From contig NZ_MUXE01000012.1 of assembly GCF_003063245.1 (NCBI RefSeq), positions 1 to 64,000 on the forward strand: 64,000 nt of DNA, in the 5' to 3' direction. The position numbers and the translations under genes are program-made. Shown here piece after piece: positions 2,526 to 53,972 of the stretch (positions are counted from its first letter, which is position 1; each line of letters opens with the position of its first letter). This DNA is from Arcobacter caeni. GTDB lineage: Bacteria; Campylobacterota; Campylobacteria; Campylobacterales; Arcobacteraceae. The notes under the pieces are model-generated. The model ran no database searches. It was given only the letters and a program-made list of their open reading frames with translations, and was not told the DNA's origin.

Positions 2526-3185
2526 ATGAAAGTTTTGTTACTAGAAGATGATGTTGCATTAAGTGATTTATTAAATGAACATCTTGAAGATAAAGGTTTT
2601 GAAGTAACTTTGTGTACTAATGGACAAGTTGCTTTAGAAGCTTTAATTGAGCAAAAGTTTGATATTGCTTTGCTTGATATTAATACTCCACAAATTAGTG
2701 GAATAGATGTTTTAAAAACTATTAGAAAAGAGTATAAAAATAATACTCCTGTTATTATTCTAACAGCTTATCAAGATACAAAACATTTAAAAGAATCATT
2801 TGAAAATGGCGTTGATGATTATATTAAAAAGCCTTTTGATTTAGAAGAATTAGATCAGAGGATTTTAAAACTTTGTAGACAATTTTTTATTAATCAAGAT
2901 AATAAAATAGAAATCGATAAAAATCTATTTTTTGAACCAGAATCATGTCAAATTTTTAAAGATGATAAAATAATAAATCTAGCTTTAAAAGAAAGAGATA
3001 TTTTGAGATATTTTTGTACTCATAAAAATAGAGTAATTTCAAGTGATGAATTATTACAAAATATTTGGGTTTATGATGAAATGCCTACAGATGCTACTAT
3101 TCGAGTTTATATTAAAAATCTTAGAGAAATTATTGGTAAAGAAAAAATAACAACAATTCGTTCAGTAGGGTATAGATTTGAATAA
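2526..3185 (+). CDS. OmpR-family response regulator
   Basis: A 219-residue response regulator. The receiver domain (1-115) has acidic residues at 8-9, the phospho-acceptor Asp51 in IALLDINTP, the Thr of ILTAY and Lys in IKKPFD. Residues 125-219 form an OmpR/PhoB winged helix ending TTIRSVGYRFE. The stop overlaps the start of the histidine kinase at 3178 by eight bases, so the pair is co-translated. The signal and target genes are unknown. The neighbouring Nudix and cytochrome c genes on the same strand are possible but unproven members of the same transcription unit. Confidence 0.92.
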   Translation: MKVLLLEDDVALSDLLNEHLEDKGFEVTLCTNGQVALEALIEQKFDIALLDINTPQISGIDVLKTIRKEYKNNTPVIILTAYQDTKHLKESFENGVDDYIKKPFDLEELDQRILKLCRQFFINQDNKIEIDKNLFFEPESCQIFKDDKIINLALKERDILRYFCTHKNRVISSDELLQNIWVYDEMPTDATIRVYIKNLREIIGKEKITTIRSVGYRFE

Positions 3186-4350
3186 TGATGAAAAAAAAGC
3201 TTTAAGAAATTTTTTATTTATTTATGTTAGTTCAACAATTTTTCTTGTTAGTGTAATTTTATATGTTTATTATCAAAATGAATTAAAAATGGCGCATGAT
3301 TCTTGTACTATGGAACTTAAAAATGCTTCTATGCAGATTAAAGCAGAAATTTTAGATAAGTATATGAAGAAAAAAGATTTTATTCCTCAAAAGTTAGCAA
3401 AAGAAAATATTAAATATGCACTTTTAGATAAAGATAAAAATATTATTTTTTCATATTTAGATGAAAGATTTCAAGTTGATTATTCTAAAAATATTTATGA
3501 AAATAGTTTTTATAACTATTTCATAACTACTCTTGATGAAGAAAATATTCCTATTAAATATATAATTATGGAAAGTTGTCAAGTAGTTAGTGATAAAAAT
3601 AATATTAAAATATTAATACTTATAAAACTGATTATTAGTTCAATATTTATAGCTTGTGTTGGTTATTTATTGTCAAAAATTTTATTAAATCCTGCAAGAA
3701 AAAGAGTTGAATCAATGGATAAATTTATAAAAGATTCAGCCCATGAATTAAATACACCTATTACAGTTTTAATGACTTCTGTTTCAATGTTGAAAAGTGG
3801 AAAAAATCCTGAAAAAATGATGAAATATATTTTAAGTAGTTCTAAGCAGATTTCTCAAATATATAATGATATTCATTTTTCTGCTTTTAATGAGATAAAT
3901 GAAGATGTTTTTGAAGAGTTTGATTTAAAAGATTTGGTTGCTGAGAGTACGGATTATTTTAATGATATTTCTATTACAAAAAATATTCAGATTAATTCGA
4001 ATCTTTTTAGTTGTTTTATAAAAATGGATAAAACAAAAACTCAAAAATTAGTAAATAATTTAATTTCAAATGCAATTAAATATAGTTATAAAGACTCTAT
4101 CATTGAAGTTACTTTAAAAAATAATATTTTGATCGTAAAAGATTTTGGAAGAGGAATAAGTAAAGAGGAAGAAAAAGAGATTTTTAAAAGATATAAAAGA
4201 GGAAATAATAACGAAGGTGGTTTTGGAATAGGTTTAGATATTGTAAAAAGAATTTGCAATGAATATAATTTACTTCTAGATTTAAAATCACAATTAAAAA
4301 AAGAGACGGTGTTTAGTGTTGATTTTTCTTCAATTGTAAATAAAAAGTAA
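3178..4350 (+). CDS. Sensor histidine kinase
   Basis: A 390-residue membrane histidine kinase. The TTG start at 3178 overlaps the response regulator gene. Membrane segments at about 10-32 and 142-166 flank a short periplasmic domain of about 110 residues with two cysteines (near 43 and 134). The H-box is KDSAHELNTP with His189. The ATP-binding domain has NNLISNAIKYS (N-box), DFGRGIS (G1) and GGFGIGLDIV (G2). No HAMP domain is obvious. The architecture matches the second kinase in this window (50888-52027), so the two systems may be paralogues. Signal unknown. Confidence 0.92.
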   Translation: MNNDEKKALRNFLFIYVSSTIFLVSVILYVYYQNELKMAHDSCTMELKNASMQIKAEILDKYMKKKDFIPQKLAKENIKYALLDKDKNIIFSYLDERFQVDYSKNIYENSFYNYFITTLDEENIPIKYIIMESCQVVSDKNNIKILILIKLIISSIFIACVGYLLSKILLNPARKRVESMDKFIKDSAHELNTPITVLMTSVSMLKSGKNPEKMMKYILSSSKQISQIYNDIHFSAFNEINEDVFEEFDLKDLVAESTDYFNDISITKNIQINSNLFSCFIKMDKTKTQKLVNNLISNAIKYSYKDSIIEVTLKNNILIVKDFGRGISKEEEKEIFKRYKRGNNNEGGFGIGLDIVKRICNEYNLLLDLKSQLKKETVFSVDFSSIVNKK

Positions 4351-4368
4351 ATTGAATTATTTTTTTGT

Positions 4369-4374
4369 TAGAAT
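4369..4374 (+). promoter_or_regulatory. Possible -10 of the Nudix gene
   Basis: TAGAAT follows a T-rich run and lies 24 bases upstream of the ATG at 4398. It falls inside the upstream in-frame extension that starts with TTG at 4365, so if it is a promoter the ATG is the true start. Confidence 0.4.
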
Positions 4375-4397
4375 ACAAAAAATTTAAAAGATTAAAA

Positions 4398-4982
4398 ATG
4401 ATAAATGTAATTGAAAATTTAGAAATAAGTGAATTAAAAGATACAAAATTTATTCATCCAATAAAAGTGACTTTTAATCAAAATGGAAAAGATAAAACTT
4501 GGGAAGCTGTAAGAAGCCATAATAGTGTGGCAATTCTTTTATATCATATTGAAAAAAAAGCTTTTTTACTTGTAAAACAGTTTCGTGTTCCCATTTTTTT
4601 AAATGATAATTCTAAAACATTTACTTATGAATTATGTGCTGGATTAGTTGATAAAGATAAATCTTTAGAAGAAATAGCTCAAGAAGAAATTGATGAAGAG
4701 TGTGGGTATCATGTAAAAATAGATGATATTTTAAAAATAACTTCATTTTATACAAATGTTGGAATAAGTGGAGCTTGTCAATATTTATTTTTTGCTAAAA
4801 TTGATGAATCAATGAAAATTCATGATGGTGGTGGAATAAATGATGAACAAATAGAAGTTATGTTTTTGCCAATTGAACAAGGTGAAGAATTTATTTTTGA
4901 TGAATCAAAAGCTAAAACACCTGGTTTAATGTTTAGTTTTTATTGGTTTTTTAAAAATATAGAAAAATTAGGAGTTAAATGA
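4398..4982 (+). CDS. Nudix hydrolase resembling nucleoside-diphosphate-sugar pyrophosphatase (NUDT14-like)
   Basis: A 194-residue Nudix protein that hydrolyses a nucleoside diphosphate linked to another group, probably ADP-ribose or a UDP/GDP sugar. The Nudix helix lies at about 82-104 (GLVDKD, then EEIDEECGY). It keeps the metal-binding ExxEE core, but the usual early Glu and the Arg of REUXEE are Lys and Glu. From memory, the order YELCAGLVD...DEECGYH followed by a GGG loop resembles human NUDT14, a UDP-sugar pyrophosphatase. I prefer the ATG at 4398 over the in-frame TTG at 4365, because a -10-like box lies between them. Its stop overlaps the next ATG by four bases. Confidence 0.8.
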   Translation: MINVIENLEISELKDTKFIHPIKVTFNQNGKDKTWEAVRSHNSVAILLYHIEKKAFLLVKQFRVPIFLNDNSKTFTYELCAGLVDKDKSLEEIAQEEIDEECGYHVKIDDILKITSFYTNVGISGACQYLFFAKIDESMKIHDGGGINDEQIEVMFLPIEQGEEFIFDESKAKTPGLMFSFYWFFKNIEKLGVK

Positions 4983-5473
4983 AATATATATATGTAATTT
5001 TCTTACTTCTTAGTTCACTTCTTTTTGCTAATGAAGTTGAACAAAATCAATTAGAAAACAAACAACCAGAAGTAAATCAACCAGAACAAAAACAGCAAGA
5101 AGATTTAATGGATATTAATAATTCTTTTATTACAAAATATGAATATGGAAAAATGCTTTATAATAATCCAAGAGGAATAGGGTGTAATAGCTGTCATGGA
5201 AATGATGCGAGAGGAAGAAAAATGGTTGATTTTAAACATCAACTATTTGATAAAAAAGTTTACAATTGTACTTTAATTATTCCTGATATAAAAAGTATAG
5301 ATTATGAAACTTTTTCACAGAAAGTAAATACTAAAAAGAATATAAATTTAAAATTTGAAAAAGAACAGGTTTGTGAAAAATTAATTCATAATGCTAATGT
5401 TATGCCAACATATTTCTTGGTTGAAGAAGAGATAGAAGCTATCTTTTATTATATACAAAATATGAAAAAATAG
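4979..5473 (+). CDS. Periplasmic cytochrome c family protein (one haem)
   Basis: A 164-residue exported protein. A signal peptide (1-17, ending LLFA) is followed by a Gln/Glu/Pro-rich linker (18-42), then a small class I cytochrome c domain with one haem-binding CNSCH (69-73) and a probable methionine ligand in NVMPTYF. The C-terminal IEAIFYYIQNMKK helix is typical of this fold. It probably carries electrons in the periplasm, as in the branched respiratory chains of Campylobacterota. It overlaps the Nudix gene by four bases (ATGA). The redox partner is unknown. Confidence 0.85.
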   Translation: MKYIYVIFLLLSSLLFANEVEQNQLENKQPEVNQPEQKQQEDLMDINNSFITKYEYGKMLYNNPRGIGCNSCHGNDARGRKMVDFKHQLFDKKVYNCTLIIPDIKSIDYETFSQKVNTKKNINLKFEKEQVCEKLIHNANVMPTYFLVEEEIEAIFYYIQNMKK

Positions 5474-5504
5474 GATTATCTGGAAAAAGCTATTCCTAAT
5501 CCTA
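5471..5504. terminator. Hairpin between convergent cytochrome and pldA genes
   Basis: TAGGATTA (5471-5478) pairs perfectly with TAATCCTA (5497-5504), with an inner GGAA/TTCC pairing. It overlaps both stop codons of the convergent genes. There is no strong T run, so it may act as a weak bidirectional terminator or only stabilise transcript ends. Confidence 0.45.
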
Positions 5505-6495
5505 CTTTATGAACTTCTCGATCATAGTCAATTAAATTATTTCCATAACCTGAGAAAACTTGAAATATTCCATAGGTATCCGTTGCATATAAAAAGTCTG
5601 GTAATGGAAAAGTCCAATTTAATTCTGCTGAACCTTTATTTGAATCATTGAAATCAAGATTATTTCGTAAAGTTAATTCAAAAGTATGTTTTTTATAAGC
5701 ATATAAAAAAGTTAAATCACCATTTCCATAATAATCTTCAATATTTGGATTATCATCATCTGCACTATCTTCAGGGAGTCTATACCAAACTTTTGGAATT
5801 ATAAATAAATTTGAGAGTTGAAAATAACCTTCTAAATAGACTCTATTCCATGATCTTGATAATTCATCATTCTTTCCATTTGAAACATGGTTTAATGCAA
5901 CTTTATAACCTTTTAAAGTGCTGGTACTTTTGTATGGAAATTGTATGAATACTTCAGGTTCATAATTTGTTTCTCTAAAAGGAGAAGAGTGTTCTCCTGT
6001 TTGCCAAAATGATTTTTGAGTATATGCAGCTGAAATTGATTCATTAAGTCCAAAGAAATTATATGAGATAGGTTTTTCTAAACTTATTTGGAAATTTGTT
6101 TCAAATGCATTTTGATCTTTTGGTGTATTTAATTGGTAGGTTGCAGGAAGAATATAATTTTTTTTATAAGGATAAAGACCAAAATCACTTGTAATTATTT
6201 GCTTTAGATTTTCATCTGTTTCTTTATCATTAACCTTATCTATTTGATTTTGATAAAAAGCTTTTTTCATATTAGTAAATGATTCAACTTTATGTTCATT
6301 ATTTTTTGATAAATCAACTAAATATCTATCTTCTTGATTATTTTTTGGAAGATTTAAATCAGCAGCTTTTTTGTATAAAAGCATAGCTTCTTTATAGTTT
6401 CCTTGATTTTCTAAATCTTGAGCTTCCTGATAAATCTTATTTATATCATTACTCAAACATAAAGTACATATAAATAAGGGTAAAAATTTTTTCAT
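5476..6495 (-). CDS. pldA: Outer membrane phospholipase A
   Basis: A 339-residue outer membrane phospholipase A that cleaves acyl chains from phospholipids in the outer leaflet. After a signal peptide (1-15), residues 18-50 form a small helical repeat (TPR/Sel1-like), an addition to the E. coli type. The barrel starts near 130. The catalytic site is clear: His203 and Ser205 in NHVSNG, then SRSWNR with Asn217, the same spacing as the E. coli His142/Ser144/Asn156 set. SSPFRETNYEPE near 170 is another family motif. In Campylobacter and Helicobacter, PldA is linked to haemolysis and colonisation. The gene ends convergently with the cytochrome gene. Confidence 0.92.
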   Translation of the reverse strand: MKKFLPLFICTLCLSNDINKIYQEAQDLENQGNYKEAMLLYKKAADLNLPKNNQEDRYLVDLSKNNEHKVESFTNMKKAFYQNQIDKVNDKETDENLKQIITSDFGLYPYKKNYILPATYQLNTPKDQNAFETNFQISLEKPISYNFFGLNESISAAYTQKSFWQTGEHSSPFRETNYEPEVFIQFPYKSTSTLKGYKVALNHVSNGKNDELSRSWNRVYLEGYFQLSNLFIIPKVWYRLPEDSADDDNPNIEDYYGNGDLTFLYAYKKHTFELTLRNNLDFNDSNKGSAELNWTFPLPDFLYATDTYGIFQVFSGYGNNLIDYDREVHKVGLGIAFSR

Positions 6496-40732: not shown

Positions 40733-41719
40733 TTATTTTTCTGGTGTGTAAATTTCATCAAGTAAACTATCAACGAAGTCATCTGGAGAAAATGCAATTA
40801 AATCATCTTGTTTTTCACCAACTCCCACATAAAAAATTGGAAGTTCAAGTTGATTTGAGATTGAAAATAAAGCACCACCTTTTGCTGTTCCATCAAGTTT
40901 TGTAACGATTATTCCATCAATTCCAACCATTTCATTAAAAGCTTTTGCTTGAGCGATTGCTGTATTTCCTTGTGTTCCATCTAAAATCATAAGTTTTTGA
41001 TGTGGAGCGCCAGTCATTGCTTTTTCACATACTTTTACGATTTTTTTAAGTTCATTGTTTAGGTTTGTTTGAGTTTGTAATCTTCCTGCTGTATCAATAA
41101 TTACATTATCAATATTTCTAGCTATTGCTGCACTAATTGTATCGAATGCTACAGCACTTGCATCATGCCCTTGTTTTGTTTTAATTATTGGAACATCTAA
41201 TTTTGCTGCCCAAGTAGAGAGCTGTTCAATTGCTGCTGCTCTAAAAGTATCACCAGCTCCAAGAATTACAGATTTCCCATCTTTTTTAGAAATATTTGCT
41301 AATTTTGCAATAGTTGTAGTTTTTCCAGCTCCATTAACACCAATAATAAGTCTTACAAATGGTTTTGGTAAATTTGATAAATCAACTTTTGGAGCATGTT
41401 CAAAAAGCATTACAAGTCTATGTCTTAACTGTTTTCTAGTAATCTCATCAGGAAGTCCATCCATAGCTTTTTCTATAATTTCATATTCCATATCCGCTTC
41501 AATTAAAAGTTCTTGAATATCATCAAAAGATATTTTTTCCTTTTTTTGAGGAACAACAGTTTTGATAGTTTCAAAAGTTTTTTCTAATGCTTTTGAGAAA
41601 AATCCTTTTTTTTGCTCATTTTCAGCTTTGATTTCTTGAATAGTATTTTCTTTTATTTCTAAAGGAAGTTCTTCCTTTTCTATATCAATATCTTTTTTCT
41701 TTTTAAAAAAACTAAACAT
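40733..41719 (-). CDS. ftsY: Signal recognition particle receptor FtsY
   Basis: A 328-residue SRP GTPase that docks translating ribosomes at the membrane. The N-terminus is short and acidic-basic (1-70), then the N domain and G domain with GVNGAGKTTTIAKLA (G1), DTFRAAAIEQL, IDTAGRLQTQ and TKLDGTAKGG. All G motifs are present. The TonB-like gene lies 15 bases downstream, and a TlpA-like thioredoxin gene upstream on the same strand. Confidence 0.97.
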   Translation of the reverse strand: MFSFFKKKKDIDIEKEELPLEIKENTIQEIKAENEQKKGFFSKALEKTFETIKTVVPQKKEKISFDDIQELLIEADMEYEIIEKAMDGLPDEITRKQLRHRLVMLFEHAPKVDLSNLPKPFVRLIIGVNGAGKTTTIAKLANISKKDGKSVILGAGDTFRAAAIEQLSTWAAKLDVPIIKTKQGHDASAVAFDTISAAIARNIDNVIIDTAGRLQTQTNLNNELKKIVKVCEKAMTGAPHQKLMILDGTQGNTAIAQAKAFNEMVGIDGIIVTKLDGTAKGGALFSISNQLELPIFYVGVGEKQDDLIAFSPDDFVDSLLDEIYTPEK

Positions 41720-41728
41720 TTTTTACCT

Positions 41729-42289
41729 TTATTTTTCTAATACTTTTTTAATATCAATTTCCATCATTTCATTTGGAACTATTCCTACATATTTTTGAAA
41801 TACAGTATTTCTCTTATCAATTAAAAACATAGTTGGAATTGATTTTATTCCTCCAACTGCTTTTGCAAGATCCATATTTTCAGGTGCATTTGTTACTTCA
41901 TAATTTATATTATGCTCTTTTACAAATTGTTTGATTTCATCATTTGTTTTCATTTCTTCAAGTAAAACTGAAATAATTACAAGATCATTTCTATAATCAT
42001 TTTGTATTTTTATTAAATTTGGTATTTCTGCTTTACAAGGCGGACACCAAGTTGTAAAAAAGCTTAATAATACTATCTTATTTGGATAATCTTTTGCGAT
42101 TATTTTATCATTTTCTAATTTCAGATTTACTACTGTGTCATTTATAGTCTTTAGTTGAAATTCTGATACTCTATTGTTACTTTTTACAGAAGTTTCTTCC
42201 TTTGAAGAGTTGTCTTTATCTTTTGAATCACACCCTGTAAATAATAAAATGGATAAAATTGACAAAAATGCTAAAGTTTTAAACTGCAT
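41729..42289 (-). CDS. TlpA/ResA-like thioredoxin lipoprotein
   Basis: A 186-residue lipoprotein: signal peptide with lipobox LFTGC, then a TlpA-type thioredoxin domain with active site TTWCPPCKAE. Such proteins reduce disulphides in the periplasm, for example in cytochrome c maturation, which fits the cytochromes encoded here. ATG at 42289 (MQFKTLAFLS) is preferred, with AAGGA before it; an upstream in-frame start would add 16 residues ahead of the signal peptide. A stem-loop region lies immediately upstream. Confidence 0.88.
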   Translation of the reverse strand: MQFKTLAFLSILSILLFTGCDSKDKDNSSKEETSVKSNNRVSEFQLKTINDTVVNLKLENDKIIAKDYPNKIVLLSFFTTWCPPCKAEIPNLIKIQNDYRNDLVIISVLLEEMKTNDEIKQFVKEHNINYEVTNAPENMDLAKAVGGIKSIPTMFLIDKRNTVFQKYVGIVPNEMMEIDIKKVLEK

Positions 42290-42299
42290 TTTAATTCCT

Positions 42300-42337
42300 T
42301 TGGGTAAAATTATTTGTTGGGTAGAGATTTTACCCAA
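42300..42337 (-). promoter_or_regulatory. Competing hairpins upstream of the TlpA-like gene
   Basis: Three copies of one 7-mer unit are arranged so that two hairpins exclude each other. TTGGGTA lies at 42300-42306 and 42317-42323, and its complement TACCCAA at 42331-42337. Hairpin A uses 42300-42310 with 42327-42337 (11 pairs). Hairpin B uses 42317-42323 with 42331-42337. Hairpin A ends right at the ribosome site (AAGGA) of the TlpA-like gene. It could be an attenuator-like leader, or an operator with three half sites. Confidence 0.5.
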
Positions 42338-42350
42338 GTGAGGCTTAAAT

Positions 42351-42890
42351 ATGAAAAATGATCACAAAAGTGATTTCAGAAAATCGTGTATAAAGAGATT
42401 AGAATTTACAAGCCTTTTTTTAAAGTATTACAAAAATAAAATAATTGTTAAAAAATTAGAAAACTTTATAAAACGAAGTGATTCGAAAAATATTTTATTA
42501 TATATCCCTATGGATATAGAAGTTGATGTAAAACCGTTGATAAAAAGTTTAAGAAAAACAAAAAAGAGAGAAGTTTATGTACCATTTATGCAAGGGGATA
42601 GTTTCAAAATTGTTAAATATAGATTACCCTTGCACAAAAAGAGATTTGGAATAAAAGAACCAAATAACTCTTTTTTTAAAGCAAAAAAAATTGACCTAGC
42701 AATAGTTCCTATAGTTGGAATTGATAAATTAGGAAAAAGAATAGGTTTTGGAAAAGGTATGTACGATAGATTTTTTGATAGGTTAAACTACAAACCAATA
42801 ACGATTTTTACGCAGTTAGTACTTTGCAAGAGTGAAAAGATTCTATCTGATAATTACGATATTCAAGCTAATTACATAATAACAAATTAA
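42351..42890 (+). CDS. 5-formyltetrahydrofolate cyclo-ligase
   Basis: A 179-residue enzyme that converts 5-formyl-THF to 5,10-methenyl-THF using ATP. The key C-terminal motif is RIGFGKGMYDRFF, and LAIVPIVGID is the preceding family block. The N-terminal KSDFRKSCIKRL supplies basic residues for ATP binding. GAGG lies before the ATG. It is followed ten bases later by rny on the same strand. Confidence 0.9.
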   Translation: MKNDHKSDFRKSCIKRLEFTSLFLKYYKNKIIVKKLENFIKRSDSKNILLYIPMDIEVDVKPLIKSLRKTKKREVYVPFMQGDSFKIVKYRLPLHKKRFGIKEPNNSFFKAKKIDLAIVPIVGIDKLGKRIGFGKGMYDRFFDRLNYKPITIFTQLVLCKSEKILSDNYDIQANYIITN

Positions 42891-42900
42891 GGTTTTGAAT

Positions 42901-44445
42901 ATGGAATATATACTAGTAATTGCATTTGTAGGAGTACTGAGTTCTGCATTAAGCATAATTATTGTAAAAAAATTAGATAAAGCAAAATTTCAAGTTTTTA
43001 TTGAACAAGCAAAAGCAAAGGCAAAAGTAATCGAGCATGAAGCAGAAGTTTCTTTAAAAGATGCTCAATTAAAGGCAAAATTCGAATGTGATAGAGAATT
43101 TAAACACGCAAGAAGAGAGTATGATGTAATGCTTTCTAAAATAGAAAAAAAAGAGCGTGAATTAAATGAACATTTAGAATCTGAATTAAGAATTATCAAA
43201 CAAGAAAAAGATGAGATAGTTGAAAAAAATAGAAAAATTACAACTTTAAAAGAAGGAATGGAACAGCAAAAAAAGACTTATGAAAATAAAACTTTTGAAG
43301 CTATAAAAATACTTGAAAATGCTTCTGGTTTAACTTTGATTGAGGCTAGAGAATTAATGCTTAAAAAAGTTAAAGAAGATTCAAGAGCTGAAATTGCTTC
43401 AATTTTTAGAAAAAAATATAAAATTGCAGAGCAGAATTCAAAAAATGAAATTAATAATATGCTTTCACTAGCAGTTACAAGATATGCAGGTGAATTTGCA
43501 GCTGAGCGATTAATAAATAATGTTCCTATAAATGATGAAGAAACAAAAGGTAAAATAATAGGAAAAGAGGGGCGAAATATCAAAGCTCTTGAAATGTTAT
43601 TAGGTGTTGATATTATTATTGATGATACACCAAATACTATTACAATTTCATCTTTTAATCTTTACAGACGAGCAGTTGCTACTAAAACTATTAGAGAATT
43701 ACTTGAAGATGGAAGAATTCAACCTGCAAGAATTGAAGAAATTTATAAAAAAGTAAAATCAGAATTTGACAAAAACATCCAAAAAGAGGGTGAAGATGTT
43801 GTTTTAGAACTTGGAATTAAAACAATGCATCCAGAGCTTATCAAACTTGTTGGAAGATTAAGATATAGAGCTTCTTATGGACAAAACGCACTTGCTCATA
43901 CACTTGAAGTTGCTCATTTATCTGGATTATTAGCATCTCAAATGGGTGGAGATGCAATATTAGCTAGACGGGCTGGACTTTTACATGATATTGGAAAAGC
44001 TTTAACTCATGAAATGCCAGGTTCTCATGTACAATTAGGTGCTGAAATTTGTAAAAGATATGATGAATGTGATACAGTTATAAATGCAATTTATGCTCAC
44101 CATGGACATGAAGAACCAATAAATGTAGAATCAGCTTCTGTATGTGCTGCGGATGCTTTAAGTGCTGCAAGACCAGGTGCTAGAAGAGAAGTATTAGAGA
44201 GTTTCCTAAAAAGAGTAGAGGAAGTTGAAAATATTTCTACAAGTAAATTGGGTGTTTTAAATGCTTATGCAATAAATGCAGGAAGAGAAGTAAGAGTTAT
44301 TGTAAAAGCTGAGCTTGTAAATGATGATGAAGCTATTTTATTAGCTACTGAAATTGCAAAAGAGATTGAGCAAAAAGTTCAATATCCTGGTGAAATTAAA
44401 GTGAATGTAATCAGAGAAATAAGAGCTGAAAGTTATGCTAGATAA
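42901..44445 (+). CDS. rny: Ribonuclease Y
   Basis: A 514-residue membrane-anchored endoribonuclease that starts mRNA decay. An N-terminal membrane helix (1-22) precedes a long coiled coil (30-160), a KH domain (about 200-265, with IIGKEGRNIKALE) and an HD domain (about 330-430, LLHDIGKALTHE and YAHHGHEEP). ATG 42901 is preferred to TTG 42895 because AAGG at 42889-42892 gives the right spacing only for the ATG. All catalytic residues are present. Confidence 0.96.
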   Translation: MEYILVIAFVGVLSSALSIIIVKKLDKAKFQVFIEQAKAKAKVIEHEAEVSLKDAQLKAKFECDREFKHARREYDVMLSKIEKKERELNEHLESELRIIKQEKDEIVEKNRKITTLKEGMEQQKKTYENKTFEAIKILENASGLTLIEARELMLKKVKEDSRAEIASIFRKKYKIAEQNSKNEINNMLSLAVTRYAGEFAAERLINNVPINDEETKGKIIGKEGRNIKALEMLLGVDIIIDDTPNTITISSFNLYRRAVATKTIRELLEDGRIQPARIEEIYKKVKSEFDKNIQKEGEDVVLELGIKTMHPELIKLVGRLRYRASYGQNALAHTLEVAHLSGLLASQMGGDAILARRAGLLHDIGKALTHEMPGSHVQLGAEICKRYDECDTVINAIYAHHGHEEPINVESASVCAADALSAARPGARREVLESFLKRVEEVENISTSKLGVLNAYAINAGREVRVIVKAELVNDDEAILLATEIAKEIEQKVQYPGEIKVNVIREIRAESYAR

Positions 44446-48188: not shown

Positions 48189-48206
48189 ATAACTATTTGT
48201 TACTTT

Positions 48207-48230
48207 CAAGTTATATACAAGTGTTATAGT
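48207..48230 (+). promoter_or_regulatory. tsdA promoter with direct repeats
   Basis: TG, T, TATAGT (48222-48230) forms an extended -10 some 32 bases before the tsdA ATG. Just upstream, CAAGTTATA (48207-48215) and CAAGTGTTATA (48218-48228) repeat with an 11-base step, the layout often bound by OmpR-type regulators. An outer dyad AACTAT (48190-48195) and ATAGTT (48226-48231) is also present. AGGGGG is an unusually strong ribosome site. Confidence 0.5.
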
Positions 48231-48261
48231 TTCCTAATTAAATAGTAGGGGGAAATTATTT

Positions 48262-49239
48262 ATGAAAAAAGTTATGGTAGTAGCAACATTATCTGCGTTA
48301 TGTGTGACAACTTTGTTTTCATTTGATGCAAAAGTTTTAAAAGAGCGTTCGGACAATGGATACAAATCTGATGCGAAGTTGGAATATAAAATTCCAGATG
48401 ATAAAAATATTCCAAATAATCAATTTGGAGATTTAGTAAAATATGGAAAAGAACTGATAGTTCATACTTCAAAATACATAGGTCCAGAAGTTGAAGATTC
48501 AAAAATGAGATATGCTGGGAATAATTTAAATTGTCAAAGCTGTCACTTAGATGCAGGAACAAAATCTTATTCTTCATCATATATTGGGATTTTTGCTGCA
48601 TTCCCACAATATGGGGCAAGAGGTGATAGTATTGGTACACTTGCAGATAGAATTAATGGCTGTATGCAAAGAAGTATGAATGGAAAATCATTACCACTTG
48701 ATAGCAAAGAAATAAAAGCAATGCAAGCTTATATGTATTGGTTAAGTCAAGGTTATCCTGTTGCTGGAGTTGATAAATTAGAGGGTAGAAGTTTATATCC
48801 AATTGATAGAAAAATGATTAAAACTCAAGCTGCCAATCCCGTAAAAGGTGGAGTTGTTTATGAACAACAATGTGCTTCATGTCATGGTGCAAACGGTGAG
48901 GGTATAAAAAATGAAGGTCGAGCAAATGGTTATATGTATCCACCATTATGGGGAGAAGATACATATAATAAAGGTGCTGGAATGTATAGACTTCTAAAAG
49001 CAGCTGATTTTATAAAAAGTAATATGCCTTTAGGTGCAACAAAAGAAAATCCTATTTTAACTGATGAAGAAGCTTATAATGTGGCAGCATTTATCAATAT
49101 GGATTCACATTTTAGACCTGATAAAGCTGATAGAATCAAAGATTTTCCATCAGAAGAAGTTAAAGCTCCTGATGTTTATAGACCAACAATTGAAACAAAA
49201 GAGAACCAAGTAGGTCCTTTTGGAAAATTCATAAAATAA
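48262..49239 (+). CDS. tsdA: TsdA-type dihaem thiosulfate dehydrogenase / tetrathionate reductase
   Basis: A 325-residue periplasmic dihaem cytochrome c (signal peptide 1-20). Haem sites are CQSCH (91-95) and CASCH (204-208). Cys134 in RINGCMQRSMNGK is the unusual Cys ligand of haem 1 in TsdA enzymes, and Met255 in NMPLGAT fits the ligand of haem 2. TsdA joins two thiosulfates to tetrathionate and, in Campylobacter, also runs as a tetrathionate reductase. The gene stands alone between a promoter with direct repeats and a terminator, and is followed by a sensor-regulator set on the same strand. Confidence 0.93.
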   Translation: MKKVMVVATLSALCVTTLFSFDAKVLKERSDNGYKSDAKLEYKIPDDKNIPNNQFGDLVKYGKELIVHTSKYIGPEVEDSKMRYAGNNLNCQSCHLDAGTKSYSSSYIGIFAAFPQYGARGDSIGTLADRINGCMQRSMNGKSLPLDSKEIKAMQAYMYWLSQGYPVAGVDKLEGRSLYPIDRKMIKTQAANPVKGGVVYEQQCASCHGANGEGIKNEGRANGYMYPPLWGEDTYNKGAGMYRLLKAADFIKSNMPLGATKENPILTDEEAYNVAAFINMDSHFRPDKADRIKDFPSEEVKAPDVYRPTIETKENQVGPFGKFIK

Positions 49240-49245
49240 ATTAAA

Positions 49246-49277
49246 AAAAAGAGGATACTTTATTGTATTCTCTTTTT
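49246..49277 (+). terminator. Terminator after tsdA
   Basis: AAAAAGAGGATAC (49246-49258) pairs with GTATTCTCTTTTT (49265-49277) with one G-T pair and a six-base loop, ending in T residues. It separates tsdA from the sensor operon. Confidence 0.75.
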
Positions 49278-49295
49278 AATTAGTTAAAATTACTC

Positions 49296-50234
49296 ATGAA
49301 CAAAACATACAAAAATTTCATTTTATCTTTTATTATTGTTTTTATAACACTTCTATATTTTTTATACAAGTACAACAATAAAATAGAACAAAATCAAATA
49401 GACATTTTAGTTTCAAATAGAGTTGAACTTGTACAAAATGAACTAACAAATCAAAAAAATAATGCTTTATCTTTGGCAATATTATTTTCTAAGAATCAAA
49501 ATATTATTAGTTTTTTAGAAAATAATAAACCAAAAGAGTTAAAAAAAGAGCTTTTAAATTCCCTTGAAAATATAAAAAATTATACAAATATAAATAATAT
49601 CCAAATCCAAGTTCACACAAAAGATTTAAAAGTTTTTGTACGAAGTTGGGAAGATAAAGATGAGGGATTGAGTTTAGAGAGTTTTAGAAAAGGCTTGTTA
49701 AAAGTAAAAGAAACTAAAGAACCTTTTGTATCAAATGAACTAGGAAAAAGATTTAATATTAAAGCAATTTCGCCTATTTTTAATCAAAACAACGAATATA
49801 TTGGAACTCTTGAAATTATTTTAGATTATAGTGATTTAAGAAATAGATTAAAATATATGGGAATAGAGATTATTCCACTTTTAAAAAAAGAGTATTTACC
49901 AATTGCAACATCTTATCATGAGGATAATTTATTAGATGATTTTGTGATTATTCAAAATGATTATGATAAAAAATTCTATGATTTACTTATGCAACATAAA
50001 AATTATCTAAGTAATGAAAAGTTCTATTATGAGTATAATAATAAGATAATTACCCAAATTCCTTTGGGTGATATTGATTTAAAAAGTGTTGGAATTTTAA
50101 TGATTTTTTTTGATAAAAATGAACAAAATTTCAAATATTTACCAAGATATGAGTATTTGGGTGAAATAAATACAAAAGATTCAAATTTCAAAAACAACTT
50201 TTCAAAAGAAAAAAAAGAGATTATTATAAAGTGA
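49296..50234 (+). CDS. Stand-alone membrane-anchored Cache-type sensor protein
   Basis: A 312-residue protein with one N-terminal membrane helix (about 8-24) and otherwise a single extracytoplasmic domain. Residues 90-200 (VFVRSWEDKDEG, SNELGKRFNIKAISPIF, YIGTLEIILDYSDL) resemble the double-Cache domain of chemoreceptors and histidine kinases. No second membrane segment, kinase, HAMP or methyl-accepting part follows, so it cannot signal on its own. It starts 19 bases after the tsdA terminator and is followed by a response regulator four bases later, so it is probably the ligand-sensing part of that system. Confidence 0.72.
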   Translation: MNKTYKNFILSFIIVFITLLYFLYKYNNKIEQNQIDILVSNRVELVQNELTNQKNNALSLAILFSKNQNIISFLENNKPKELKKELLNSLENIKNYTNINNIQIQVHTKDLKVFVRSWEDKDEGLSLESFRKGLLKVKETKEPFVSNELGKRFNIKAISPIFNQNNEYIGTLEIILDYSDLRNRLKYMGIEIIPLLKKEYLPIATSYHEDNLLDDFVIIQNDYDKKFYDLLMQHKNYLSNEKFYYEYNNKIITQIPLGDIDLKSVGILMIFFDKNEQNFKYLPRYEYLGEINTKDSNFKNNFSKEKKEIIIK

Positions 50235-50238
50235 AAAT

Positions 50239-50898
50239 ATGAAAATTTTACTACTTGAAGATGATTATTTATATAAAATATCTATAAAAGAATTTTTGCA
50301 AGAGCTAGATTTTATTGTAGATGATTTTGAAAATGGTGACGAAGCTTTGGATGCTATTTTTACCAATAGTTATGATTTGCTTCTTTTAGATATACGAGTG
50401 CCTGGAATGGATGGTTTTACTTTGCTTGAAACTATACGAAAAGAGCAATTGAATACTCCAATTATTATTCTTACATCTTTGACTGATATTGCCAATCTTA
50501 GTCGTGGTTATGACCTTGGTTGTAATGATTATATTAGAAAACCTTTTGATTTGATTGAACTAAAATTTAGAATAGAACAGCTAATTAAAAATAGTTGTTT
50601 TAAGACTTTGGATGATTTTATACAAATTGTTCCTGATTATGAGTTTGATGTGAAAAAAAATATTTTATATAAAGAAAAAGAACAAATAGATTTAAGTTTT
50701 AAAGAGAGTGAATTAGTCTCTTTTTTAGTTCAAAATAGAGGTTTTTTTGTTTCTATCGAGACTTTACATGAAAAAATTTGGGAAAATAAAGATATTTCAT
50801 ATTCAGATATTAGAATGTGTATAAAAAGAATTAGAGAAAAAACTTGTAAAGATTTTATTAAAACTAAAAGATTTGTAGGATATAAAATTGATAAATAA
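50239..50898 (+). CDS. OmpR-family response regulator
   Basis: A 219-residue regulator with phospho-acceptor Asp51 (LLLLDIRVPG), Thr in IILTSLTD and Lys in YIRKPFD, followed by an OmpR-type winged helix ending TKRFVGYKIDK. It is the second gene of the three-gene sensor set and overlaps the histidine kinase by 11 bases. It likely targets tsdA just upstream, since an 11-base-step direct repeat lies at that promoter. That is inference. Confidence 0.92.
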   Translation: MKILLLEDDYLYKISIKEFLQELDFIVDDFENGDEALDAIFTNSYDLLLLDIRVPGMDGFTLLETIRKEQLNTPIIILTSLTDIANLSRGYDLGCNDYIRKPFDLIELKFRIEQLIKNSCFKTLDDFIQIVPDYEFDVKKNILYKEKEQIDLSFKESELVSFLVQNRGFFVSIETLHEKIWENKDISYSDIRMCIKRIREKTCKDFIKTKRFVGYKIDK

Positions 50899-52027
50899 TA
50901 AATATGAGATTAAATATATTTTAATTCAAGGTTTATTAACTTTGTTGATAGCTTTTATTCCAATATATTTTTATTTGGATTCTTCTTTTGAAAATCAAAA
51001 TATAAAAGACAAAATGGATTTAAAAAATCATGCTTATTCTGTGATTTCTAAAATTGATAATTTTGAAAAAGAAAATAGTTCTATTTTTTATTTTCCAAGA
51101 TCTAATATATATTTTTCTGGAATTTTCGATAAAAATAATCAGATGATTTTTTCTTTATTAGAAAAAAATAATTTAGATTTTTTTGACGAATTTTTAATAA
51201 ATAAAGATGAGATTTGTTATAAAAACTATTTAAATGAAAATATTTTTGAAGCAAAATTTCTAATTGTTTGCAAAAAAATTGATAACTCTTTAGTAATATA
51301 TAATGCAATTATTTTAGTTTTATCAATTAGTTTTTTTATATTTTTATCGTCATTTTTTATTATAAAACAAAGTATTGAACCATATAAAAAACTAAATCAA
51401 TATTTAGATGAATTCTTAAAAGATGCGATGCATGAGTTAAAAACACCAATTGGAGTTGCGAGAATTAATGTAGATATGTTACAAATGCGATTAAAAAATG
51501 ACAAACATATTTTACGAATAAAATCAGCTCTAAAAAATATGACTGTTATTTATGAAGATTTAGAATATTATATGCAACAAAATATGGTAAAAGATGAAAA
51601 AACAAATATAAATTTTTCACTTTTTTTAGAAAGAAGAATAGAATTTTTTAATGACTTAGTTATTTCAAAGAATATTAGATTCTCAAAAAATATTCAAAGT
51701 GATATTTTTATAACTTTTAATGAATTAGAACTATACAGAATTATAGATAATAATATTTCAAATGCAATAAAATACTCAAAAGATGGCTCAAATATTCAAA
51801 TATCTTTAGAAAAAGAAGAGAATAAAATAAGACTTTCATTTAAAGATGAAGGAATTGGAATAAAAGATAAATCAAAAATCTTCGAGCGATATTACAGAGG
51901 TGATAAAATAACAGGCGGTTTTGGAATAGGGCTTAGTATTGTGAAAAATATTTGTGCCAAAAATAAGATTGAAATTAAAGTTGAATCACAAGTAAATAAA
52001 GGAACAACCTTTATTTACTTATTTTGA
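50888..52027 (+). CDS. Sensor histidine kinase
   Basis: A 379-residue kinase with two membrane helices (about 10-30 and 136-158) and a modest periplasmic part of about 105 residues holding Cys110 and Cys128. The H-box is DAMHELKTP with His182; NNISNAIKYS, DEGIGIKDKS and GGFGIGLSIV form the ATP site. TTG at 50888 overlaps the regulator frame. The small periplasmic domain may not bind a ligand itself but contact the separate Cache-type protein. It ends convergently with a lipoprotein gene. Confidence 0.92.
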   Translation: MINNKYEIKYILIQGLLTLLIAFIPIYFYLDSSFENQNIKDKMDLKNHAYSVISKIDNFEKENSSIFYFPRSNIYFSGIFDKNNQMIFSLLEKNNLDFFDEFLINKDEICYKNYLNENIFEAKFLIVCKKIDNSLVIYNAIILVLSISFFIFLSSFFIIKQSIEPYKKLNQYLDEFLKDAMHELKTPIGVARINVDMLQMRLKNDKHILRIKSALKNMTVIYEDLEYYMQQNMVKDEKTNINFSLFLERRIEFFNDLVISKNIRFSKNIQSDIFITFNELELYRIIDNNISNAIKYSKDGSNIQISLEKEENKIRLSFKDEGIGIKDKSKIFERYYRGDKITGGFGIGLSIVKNICAKNKIEIKVESQVNKGTTFIYLF

Positions 52028-52837
52028 TTCAGTAGATAGTTTTTTCACTAAAACTGAATATCCAGAACAAGTGCAAGAATCATCTATTGCTTCTTCAATC
52101 TCTTCAGTTTTAGAAACAAATTGCCAGTTACTATTAACAGCTTCTTTTAATGTTGAATAACCAGTACTTCTTTTATTTAAATCAGTACATTTTTTAGAAC
52201 AAAGTGCTTCTTTTCCAGAATATCTCCAAGAATCAAAAAAAGTCATTGATTTTTGATCTTTTTTATTAAACAAAAGTTTAGTTTTTTGCTCTCTTGAAGC
52301 TTCTCTTCTTATAATTTCTTGTCTTTCTTTAATGACAGTTTGAGTATCTTCCTTAACAGCTGGTGTTATTTCAAATTGATGATTTTTAAAATTTTGATAA
52401 ATCTTTTTTGCTTTTTCATCAATACTAACAGAATAATAAATATTATCATTTGTATTTGCTTGATGAGTTATAAAATAAGCTTCATTGTTTACTTCACAAA
52501 CACTAGCTTTATTATTAGGATATGAATTAACATAATTTTTATTAATATAATAATTCATACTAACAAACTTACCTTTATTATCTGAACAAAGTTTTCCAAG
52601 TTCTGTTGATAAATTATTTGTAGCTTCTACTTTTGTAGATTTATTTTTATATAATTTTTGATTAGCATCATAGTCAAATGACCCATTTGACTCATTTAAA
52701 ATATCATTGATAGTTTTAACTTTTGCTTGATCAACTTTCTTAACATTTTTAACATTTGCTTTATTTGCACATGCAGTAAAAAGGATTGATGTTGAAATAA
52801 CAAACAATCCTATTTTTAAAAATTTATTTATTTCCAT
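52019..52837 (-). CDS. Uncharacterised lipoprotein
   Basis: A 272-residue protein with lipoprotein signal MEINKFLKIGLFVIS and lipobox LFTAC. The rest is polar, with an Arg/Glu-rich segment (RQEIIRREASREQKTK) and a Cys-rich end (LCSKKCTDL and CTCSGYSVLV). I recognise no family. The start at 52837 is preferred as the signal begins there; ATG 52861 would add eight residues and overlap the upstream diguanylate cyclase gene. Its 3' end overlaps the histidine kinase gene by nine bases on the other strand. Confidence 0.65.
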   Translation of the reverse strand: MEINKFLKIGLFVISTSILFTACANKANVKNVKKVDQAKVKTINDILNESNGSFDYDANQKLYKNKSTKVEATNNLSTELGKLCSDNKGKFVSMNYYINKNYVNSYPNNKASVCEVNNEAYFITHQANTNDNIYYSVSIDEKAKKIYQNFKNHQFEITPAVKEDTQTVIKERQEIIRREASREQKTKLLFNKKDQKSMTFFDSWRYSGKEALCSKKCTDLNKRSTGYSTLKEAVNSNWQFVSKTEEIEEAIDDSCTCSGYSVLVKKLSTESK

Positions 52838-52844
52838 TTTAAGA

Positions 52845-53972
52845 CTAAATCTCCATTCCATTTTCTAAAATAATTTTATTTCTTCCGTTTTCTTTTGCTT
52901 GATATAAAAGCATATCAGCTTTTTGTAGAGTATTTTCATAAGAGGTGTAACTACTTCTAATCGCTACTCCTGCTGAAAAAGTAACTTTAATTTTTTTATC
53001 TTTATATAAAAAGCTATTTTCTGTAACTATTGTTTTTATTCTTTTTAAAAACTGTAATAACTCTCGATTTAAATTAAAGTGAATAATCGCAACAAACTCT
53101 TCTCCCCCATATCTTCCAGCAACATCATGTTCTCTTACACTTTTATTTAGGATTTTTCCAAAAGTTGATAATACAACATCTCCACATTCATGACCATAAG
53201 TATCATTTAGTTTTTTGAAGTGGTCTAAATCAAAGAATATAACAGCATATTGAGTTTTAATTCTTTCATAAGCACTTTCGATTCTTTTTACTTCATCACT
53301 AAATGCTTTTCTTGTTAAAAGTCCAGTTAAATGATCTTTCATATTTTCTGTTTTTGTTCTATTGAGTTCTTCTTCAAGTTTTTTTACTTTTTCTTCAAGT
53401 TCGTGAACTTTTGTTTTACCGTTTTCTAATTTATTAGTTACAGTATTCATCTCTTTTTCAATTGATGTTGCTGCATTTATAAGTTCATTTTGAAGTTCTG
53501 TAAGAGCTTCTAAACCATTTTCATTTATATTTATTGAAGCTACTTTTTCTTTAATATTTAAAACATTTTGAGAACCAAAACCATTACTTGAAATAGCCTC
53601 ATTTAAATAATCTGACATTAATAAAACAAGTTTAGAAATATCAGAAGTTTGCTCGATTACAATCTTTTTATCTCTTTCAAACCTTTTATTAATAAAATCT
53701 TCAATTTTATCTTGTACTTTTTTATCAAATAAAAGATTTGGTTCTTTTTCAATTTGTGAAAATAGTTGATCAATCTCTTCATTAGTTTTAGGACAAATAG
53801 AAGGTAAAACAGATTGTTTTAATAAAGAAGCTAATTCGTGAACATTTTGTGGATGAACTCTTTTTAATAAGAGTGGAATTATTTTTTCAGGGAAATCAAG
53901 ATTATTTGAATTCGCCTCATCTTTTTCTTCTTTTGTTAATTGACTTAAAATATTTTCAAACTCTTTGTTCAT
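52845..53972 (-). CDS. Diguanylate cyclase (GGDEF)
   Basis: A 375-residue cytoplasmic protein with a C-terminal GGDEF domain (about 215-375). The active site is GGEEF, and RxxD (REHD) five residues before it is the product-inhibition I-site, so it should make cyclic di-GMP and be feedback controlled. The N-terminal part (1-190) has no known sensor domain; residues 175-210 form a coiled coil (LEEKVKKLEEELNRTK). The signal it senses is unknown. YajQ (1965-2465) could bind its product. Confidence 0.93.
   Translation of the reverse strand: MNKEFENILSQLTKEEKDEANSNNLDFPEKIIPLLLKRVHPQNVHELASLLKQSVLPSICPKTNEEIDQLFSQIEKEPNLLFDKKVQDKIEDFINKRFERDKKIVIEQTSDISKLVLLMSDYLNEAISSNGFGSQNVLNIKEKVASININENGLEALTELQNELINAATSIEKEMNTVTNKLENGKTKVHELEEKVKKLEEELNRTKTENMKDHLTGLLTRKAFSDEVKRIESAYERIKTQYAVIFFDLDHFKKLNDTYGHECGDVVLSTFGKILNKSVREHDVAGRYGGEEFVAIIHFNLNRELLQFLKRIKTIVTENSFLYKDKKIKVTFSAGVAIRSSYTSYENTLQKADMLLYQAKENGRNKIILENGMEI

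Follow-up and report, generated by a model that had tools for sequence, protein, structure and literature searches.

What does a Cache protein without an output domain do between a sulfur enzyme gene and a two-component regulatory pair? The question is raised by a locus of Arcobacter caeni (Arcobacteraceae, Campylobacterota) in a 64,000-nucleotide stretch of assembly GCF_003063245.1 (contig NZ_MUXE01000012.1, positions 1 to 64,000; hereafter the window), where tsdA is followed by genes for a lone Cache protein, a response regulator and a histidine kinase, the last three of which we call the trio (Table 1). The reading that we favor, with a probability of about 0.7, is that the trio is a three-part two-component system in which the lone Cache protein serves as the ligand-binding subunit, and that it switches on the adjacent sulfur enzyme. 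All four open reading frames were found where an earlier annotation made from the DNA letters (the original prediction) had placed them; that annotation had also put forward the Cache protein as a separate sensing subunit for the kinase.

Linkage of the lone Cache gene to a regulator-kinase pair and sulfur enzymes

The Cache gene is clearly kept with the regulator-kinase pair and tsdA, and the lack of conservation that the original prediction had named among its refuting outcomes did not materialize. In a family set of 104 genomes, for which the best lone Cache place per genome was compared by coordinates, tsdA and a trio-type lone Cache gene occur in 63 genomes each, both in 62 and neither in 40. 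Wherever the lone Cache gene accompanies tsdA (62 of the 63 tsdA genomes), the two lie on the same contig with starts no more than 2,987 bp apart. The only Cache gene among the 41 genomes without tsdA belongs to a genome (G100) in which Cache and regulator genes run into a contig end, and in the one genome with tsdA and no lone Cache gene (G101) tsdA starts 184 bases from a contig border. The order is tsdA-cache-regulator-kinase in the window genus and cache-regulator-kinase-tsdA in most other family loci fetched. The adjacent TsdA comes in two forms, 54-90% or 37-47% identical to the window TsdA, both of which adjoin closely related trios.

The association extends across the phylum. A profile built from 30 family Cache proteins matched 192 of 397 phylum genomes, many of the matches lying within large frames, and from match lists that end short of the weakest matches we fetched 125 lone-Cache places (44 in the family, 81 outside). 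Regulator and kinase genes adjoin the lone Cache gene at 119 of these, a conserved gene set of candidate receptor, kinase and regulator. In turn, tsdA, sox or phs genes lie within about 4-4.5 kb of 114 of the 119 trios: within the family 39 have tsdA, 2 phs and 1 sox, and outside it 13 have tsdA, 8 tsdA and phs, 1 tsdA and sox, 34 sox and 16 phs. Three of the five trios with no such enzyme nearby (L145, L156 and L175) are cut by contig ends, and the other two (L147 and L159) stand beside DsrE-family genes, L147 being 9.4 kb from soxA. Two of the six lone-Cache places without a pair (L064 and L078) are likewise at contig ends.

With respect to the enzyme names, NCBIfam cut-offs were passed by SoxX, SoxY, SoxZ and SoxA of L124, SoxX of L119 and PhsA of L127 and L121. 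Other sox and phs labels follow from similarity to these proteins, SoxB is our own label, and the name PhsA comes from one NCBIfam model at two loci, its NrfC/NrfD-like partners scoring below cut-off, so that phsBC are named by position. Among the matches listed for 92 genomes with SoxA, 40 of the 48 with a short SoxA (at most 290 residues) have a lone Cache gene no more than 10 kb from soxA, whereas none of the 44 with a longer SoxA does. The eight short-SoxA exceptions comprise two genomes with soxA and Cache on separate contigs (G129 and G440), five whose Cache matches have no listed place, and one without a Cache match (G455).

The kinase and Cache trees agree on this division by enzyme. 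In quick trees of 116 rows each, with long branches flagged and with near copies that help clustering, the enzyme label changes 2 times in the kinase tree and 1 time in the Cache tree for tsdA, 4 and 3 times for sox, and 2 and 2 times for phs; shuffled labels give means of about 39, 28 and 17 changes, respectively. In eight genomes with two trios (G451, G442, G338, G444, G302, G360, G079 and G082), both trees put each trio in the branch of its enzyme rather than next to the other trio, and we therefore conclude that the trio diversified by target. A further genome with two trios, G102, has a sox trio outside the trees. At L109, a sox-linked and a tsdA-linked trio stand back to back in one genome, which offers a natural test of cross-talk.

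Anatomy of the Cache protein and the kinase

A single-pass Cache-like protein without an output domain had been predicted, and the description held on closer examination. The 312-residue protein matches Pfam dCache_3 at 43.4 bits (cut-off 25.7) over profile positions 13-146 of 239, Pfam assigns it no output domain, and its one hydrophobic segment spans residues 8-26; the C-terminal transmembrane helix of the usual Cache architecture is missing. By a simple hydropathy cut, 97 of 116 trio Cache proteins have one hydrophobic segment, 13 have none and 6 have two, and a segment beyond residue 150 is present in 3 of the 116. dCache_3 is matched by 30 of 30 members of the family Cache alignment (E <= 0.01).

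Could the gene be a bystander, or the decaying remnant of a larger receptor that has lost its output domain? The other dCache_3 matches in the same genome do sit inside large proteins (frames of 857 and 893 residues), and one fetched Cache frame, that of L141, is broken. Nevertheless, the frames are open at nearly all 125 places, the ratio of nonsynonymous to synonymous substitution rates (dN/dS, computed from dN and dS) is about 0.10-0.18 against three close relatives, the regulator start is coupled or nearly coupled to the Cache gene, and the Cache tree matches the kinase tree by branch, all of which makes a bystander or a remnant very improbable. The conserved C-terminal residues EIIIK were considered as a docking peptide and rejected: their bases fit, in our own reading, a Shine-Dalgarno sequence for the regulator gene, and beyond the clade the pattern becomes less clear.

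The other two proteins also bear out the predicted architecture, an OmpR regulator and a kinase with a small extracytoplasmic part. The window kinase, in which Pfam finds no families but HisKA and HATPase, has no HAMP domain and is not a hybrid, and two hydrophobic segments enclose an extracytoplasmic part of about 110 residues. Of 116 trio kinases, 115 have two such segments, and all 35 that were scanned have HisKA and HATPase_c. Neither HAMP nor phosphonate-bd is among the families listed for these 35 (25 of 31), and HAMP is also absent from ten kinases scanned singly. In the 105 trio kinases measured, the phosphoaccepting histidine follows the second segment by a median of 24 residues (range 23-39); because it stands so close behind the segment and HAMP was not seen, the kinase has a short, direct coupler.

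This kinase might itself sense the signal, be it redox state, a quinone or a sulfur species, and the Cache protein might be a damping or tuning modulator, comparable to CpxP in its action on CpxA. The kinase retains an extracytoplasmic part of its own with a mostly conserved F..P stretch (F67 and P70). Moreover, a search with its N-terminal part, of which a few lower matches were inspected, turned up three regulator-kinase pairs without an adjoining Cache gene (L199-L201) alongside a sox-linked trio (L198) and a divergent one (L197). However, the sensor part is small and without a recurrent ligand-domain match in the 35 kinases scanned, the Cache protein has kept its ligand-domain family signature under purifying selection, and the pair nearly always stands beside the fetched lone Cache gene (119 of 125 places), so we regard a mere modulator as unlikely. 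One trio kinase, a member of alignment A4 outside the ten scanned singly, does match dCache_1 (E 7e-5), a hint that the small sensor part may represent a Cache domain in reduced form. A periplasmic cysteine redox switch was rejected as well: 6 close relatives all keep C110 and C128, but in wider kinase sets neither is among the positions conserved at 80% or more.

Repeats in the enzyme promoters

If the trio controls the neighboring enzyme, a binding site for its regulator would be expected in the enzyme promoter, and a direct repeat in a step of about 11 bp, as for OmpR/PhoB regulators, is indeed conserved there as a putative site. In the branch that includes the window (tsdA clade A), GTTA-N7-GTTA precedes tsdA at 24 of 24 loci and is followed by a -10-like box, the pair lying 54-69 bp ahead of the start codon where the start is not called too early; the two loci with an overlong called start, L005 and L044, have the pair as well. 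Other words recur in the same 11-bp step: TGAC at 16 of 16 loci with the divergent, f10-type tsdA, CTTA at 16 of 20 clade B loci, and TTAC upstream of soxX (28 of 31 loci) and phsA (9 of 12 loci). These promoter sets covered 31 of 32 sox trios and 12 of 18 phs trios, and the largest word count in 30 mononucleotide shuffles was 3-4 per set, with 4 for clade A.

The original prediction had likewise seen an 11-base-step repeat in the tsdA promoter; the repeat stands, but it had been placed one 11-bp unit too far downstream. The proposed operator, CAAGTTATATA/CAAGTGTTATA at 48207-48228, has the right coordinates for these letters and was rejected, as its second copy overlaps the -10 box and is unconserved in many relatives. 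The 16-base word around the conserved window pair is unique in the genome at 0 mismatches. A regulon beyond tsdA in the same genome was considered and dropped: allowing up to 2 mismatches gives 5 matches, versus 12 for the backward control. Since the candidate site covers the -35 region, it would fit an activator.

Table 1. Coordinates of the features discussed, in window positions.
Feature	Position	Strand	Basis
tsdA, dihaem thiosulfate dehydrogenase / tetrathionate reductase	48262..49239	+	phmmer; Pfam SoxA-TsdA_cyt-c
Lone dCache_3 protein with N-terminal anchor, proposed ligand-binding subunit	49296..50234	+	Pfam; hydropathy
OmpR/PhoB-type response regulator	50239..50898	+	Pfam Response_reg and Trans_reg_C
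Histidine kinase, two transmembrane segments, no HAMP	50888..52027	+	Pfam HisKA and HATPase_c
Intrinsic terminator at the boundary of tsdA and trio	49246..49277	+	Fold z -6.0
GTTA-N7-GTTA, conserved direct repeat in 11-bp step; putative site of the regulator over the tsdA -35 region	48199..48213	+	Conservation
Probable tsdA -10 box TATAGT	48225..48230	+	By eye; similar boxes at about the same spacing in relatives
TTAAAAT, candidate -10 box for the trio operon	49284..49290	+	Sequence only; similar in several relatives

The enzyme and the terminator behind it also proved to be as predicted. The best match of the window TsdA is the structure of the Allochromatium vinosum enzyme, 4wqc (phmmer, E 6e-43), and tsdA has a single match in its own genome, in which no SoxA scored above the family cut-off. 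Both haem sites (CQSCH and CASCH) are of the CXXCH type, and a further cysteine aligns with a cysteine of the A. vinosum enzyme that we take to be a haem ligand. The terminator forms a stem of 13 bp whose 3' arm is U-rich, and the 50-nucleotide stretch containing it folds at -15.5 kcal/mol, versus -4.2 in shuffles (z -6.0); a simple pattern scan listed neither this terminator nor the tsdA promoter. The TTAAAAT box ends 5 bases ahead of the Cache ATG, with similar boxes in several relatives that have the terminator. Judging from this spacing, any leader would be very short, and the trio may be transcribed into mRNA with little or no leader.

Close relatives are Aliarcobacter records. Elsewhere in the family, in genera other than that of the window, the trio has as neighbors relatives of the genes found here at 40733, 41729, 42351 and 42895; because these genes (window 40733-44445) lie about 4-8 kb upstream of tsdA here, a short-range move of the locus seems to have taken place. 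A frame on the opposite strand (52019-52861), which overlaps the kinase gene at its end, encodes a possible lipoprotein without a significant Pfam match that changes fast (59-71% in the close relatives that have it).

Ligand, mechanism and related systems

Thiosulfate, tetrathionate or a related compound had been proposed as the signal. No compound other than thiosulfate is known to be handled by all three of TsdA, SoxXYZAB and PhsABC, and it is because of this common ground that we favor it as the ligand: the presence of the same trio beside sox and phs genes as well points to thiosulfate, rather than tetrathionate, as the compound common to the family. The three-part arrangement could also hold with another ligand, such as tetrathionate, polysulfide, sulfite or a redox cue, perhaps differing from branch to branch. 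The conserved Cache core varies by enzyme branch, and the phs branch could serve polysulfide; the PhsA name comes from one model and two loci, with partners below cut-off. On the other side stands the established biochemistry by which thiosulfate alone is common to the three enzyme systems. We consider a different ligand a serious possibility that falls somewhat short of an even chance.

Under the three-part reading, the N-terminal helix of the lone dCache protein would anchor it in the inner membrane, and the protein would act as a receptor on the periplasmic side; the sulfur compound that it binds would most likely be thiosulfate, with tetrathionate possible in the tsdA branch. As the protein has neither a second transmembrane helix nor an output domain, it would have to signal by touching the kinase, either at the small extracytoplasmic part, at the transmembrane helices, or at both. 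The kinase would then phosphorylate the OmpR-type regulator, which would bind two half-sites, 11 bp apart in step, that cover the -35 region of the promoter of the adjacent enzyme, and so activate this promoter. What the analysis shows is that the genes are conserved and linked, that the trees match, that the kinase has a short coupler and that the repeats are conserved; complex formation, the ligand, phosphotransfer and the direction of regulation are what we infer.

Besides the pairs L199-L201, which are three among the few lower-scoring kinase matches checked, a number of observations weigh against this reading. Four lone Cache genes (L122, L179, L182 and L184) have no such regulator or kinase adjoining. 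Among the matches listed, the long-form sox clusters are without a trio. The divergent trio (L197, positions 2880-5825) has a Cache protein with a score of 85 and no Pfam match, and it lies beside housekeeping genes; it is possibly a trio with another ligand. The Cache proteins of L049 and L111 have a hydrophobic segment at residues 252-270, and the Pfam run covered Cache proteins of the family only. Structure prediction gives no support for the fold or the complex, the models having reached predicted local distance difference test (pLDDT) scores of 43.6 for the Cache protein and 56.3 for the kinase, each from a 6-row alignment, and among solved structures the Cache profile has its best match at an E value of 0.91. 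The strongest conserved Cache residues, RSW...R...E.G, recur, as judged by eye, in another protein of this genome that resembles a chemoreceptor. Because that protein shares the motif, the conserved core is no proof of a sulfur ligand, and an attempt to read the ligand from conserved residues was abandoned. With regard to the repeats, the statistics come from mononucleotide shuffles, and near-identical loci inflate the counts. The weakest case is clade B, because there the repeat sits farther upstream, at about 90 bp, and in part overlaps the kinase gene at its end; and in the sequences preceding the sox-linked Cache genes the best word occurs at 5 of 32 places, versus a shuffle maximum of 4.

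Two of these observations have further details. At L182 a low-scoring regulator-kinase pair lies about 2 kb off, and at L122 a gene for a HIT-domain protein lies directly upstream of the Cache gene, with small open reading frames of similar size beside L179, L182 and L184. The neighbors of the divergent trio are genes for ribosomal protein L25, peptidyl-tRNA hydrolase and LptF/G.

A broader proposal, which we hold to be evenly balanced between true and false, is that the trios form a Campylobacterota-wide family of three-part thiosulfate sensors, in which a detachable, membrane-anchored dCache protein that has no second transmembrane helix docks as the receptor on a HAMP-less kinase, with tsdA, soxXYZAB and phsABC branches whose site words changed while the 11-bp step was kept.

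A receptor separate from its kinase is already known from TorT-TorS-TorR, where TorT serves an alternative electron acceptor, and from LuxPQ. TorT and LuxP are periplasmic binding proteins and TorS and LuxQ hybrid kinases; the trio shares the split receptor with these systems and differs from them in its membrane-anchored dCache protein and its short, non-hybrid, HAMP-less kinase. For tetrathionate and thiosulfate, known sensors are TtrSR and ThsSR, whose regulators, TtrR and ThsR, are of the LuxR type, whereas that of the trio is of the OmpR type. According to excerpts of PMC5408782, these are likewise two-component systems that adjoin tetrathionate or thiosulfate enzymes and activate their promoter, with the difference that TtrS and ThsS have a PhnD-like ligand domain inside the kinase, whereas here a dCache domain resides in a separate protein.

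With respect to Cache domains, the portions of PMC4822843 at hand state that an extracellular Cache domain signals only via a C-terminal transmembrane helix, the very helix that the lone dCache_3 protein is without. They name as an exception without known output domains the stand-alone family SMP_2 of gamma-proteobacteria, which resembles the lone Cache protein in being severed from any output and belongs to a different Cache family. Our subtraction in a table of the same source leaves 59 of 883 dCache_3 proteins with no output type given, and proteins of the lone dCache_3 kind may thus already be part of that count without comment. A precedent for the regulator is found in Sulfurospirillum, where, in the main text of PMC7755780, the OmpR-type regulator of the tetrachloroethene (PCE) two-component system binds CTATA repeats overlapping the -35 box; its consensus is CTATW-N17-CTATW, and the word 'Cache' is absent from that main text. 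A term search of a 2019 review of respiratory regulation in Campylobacterota (PMC6682613) found no 'Cache' and located both mentions of TsdA in reference titles. In the titles and opening lines of abstracts listed from an open-access library, we found no description of a lone Cache gene with regulator and kinase at tsdA, sox or phs. As such, the split of receptor and kinase is established, and the lone-dCache variant beside thiosulfate enzymes looks undescribed.

Campylobacterota include both sulfur oxidizers of vents and gut pathogens. If the proposed mechanism is true, one sensor family would explain the switching of thiosulfate enzymes in many of them. It would also mean that a Cache domain can signal without a C-terminal transmembrane helix of its own, contrary to the rule in the excerpts of PMC4822843, and that a Cache receptor can serve an inorganic sulfur oxyanion. 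Finally, the trio would represent a type of thiosulfate sensor unrelated to ThsS, one that would be usable for biosensing.

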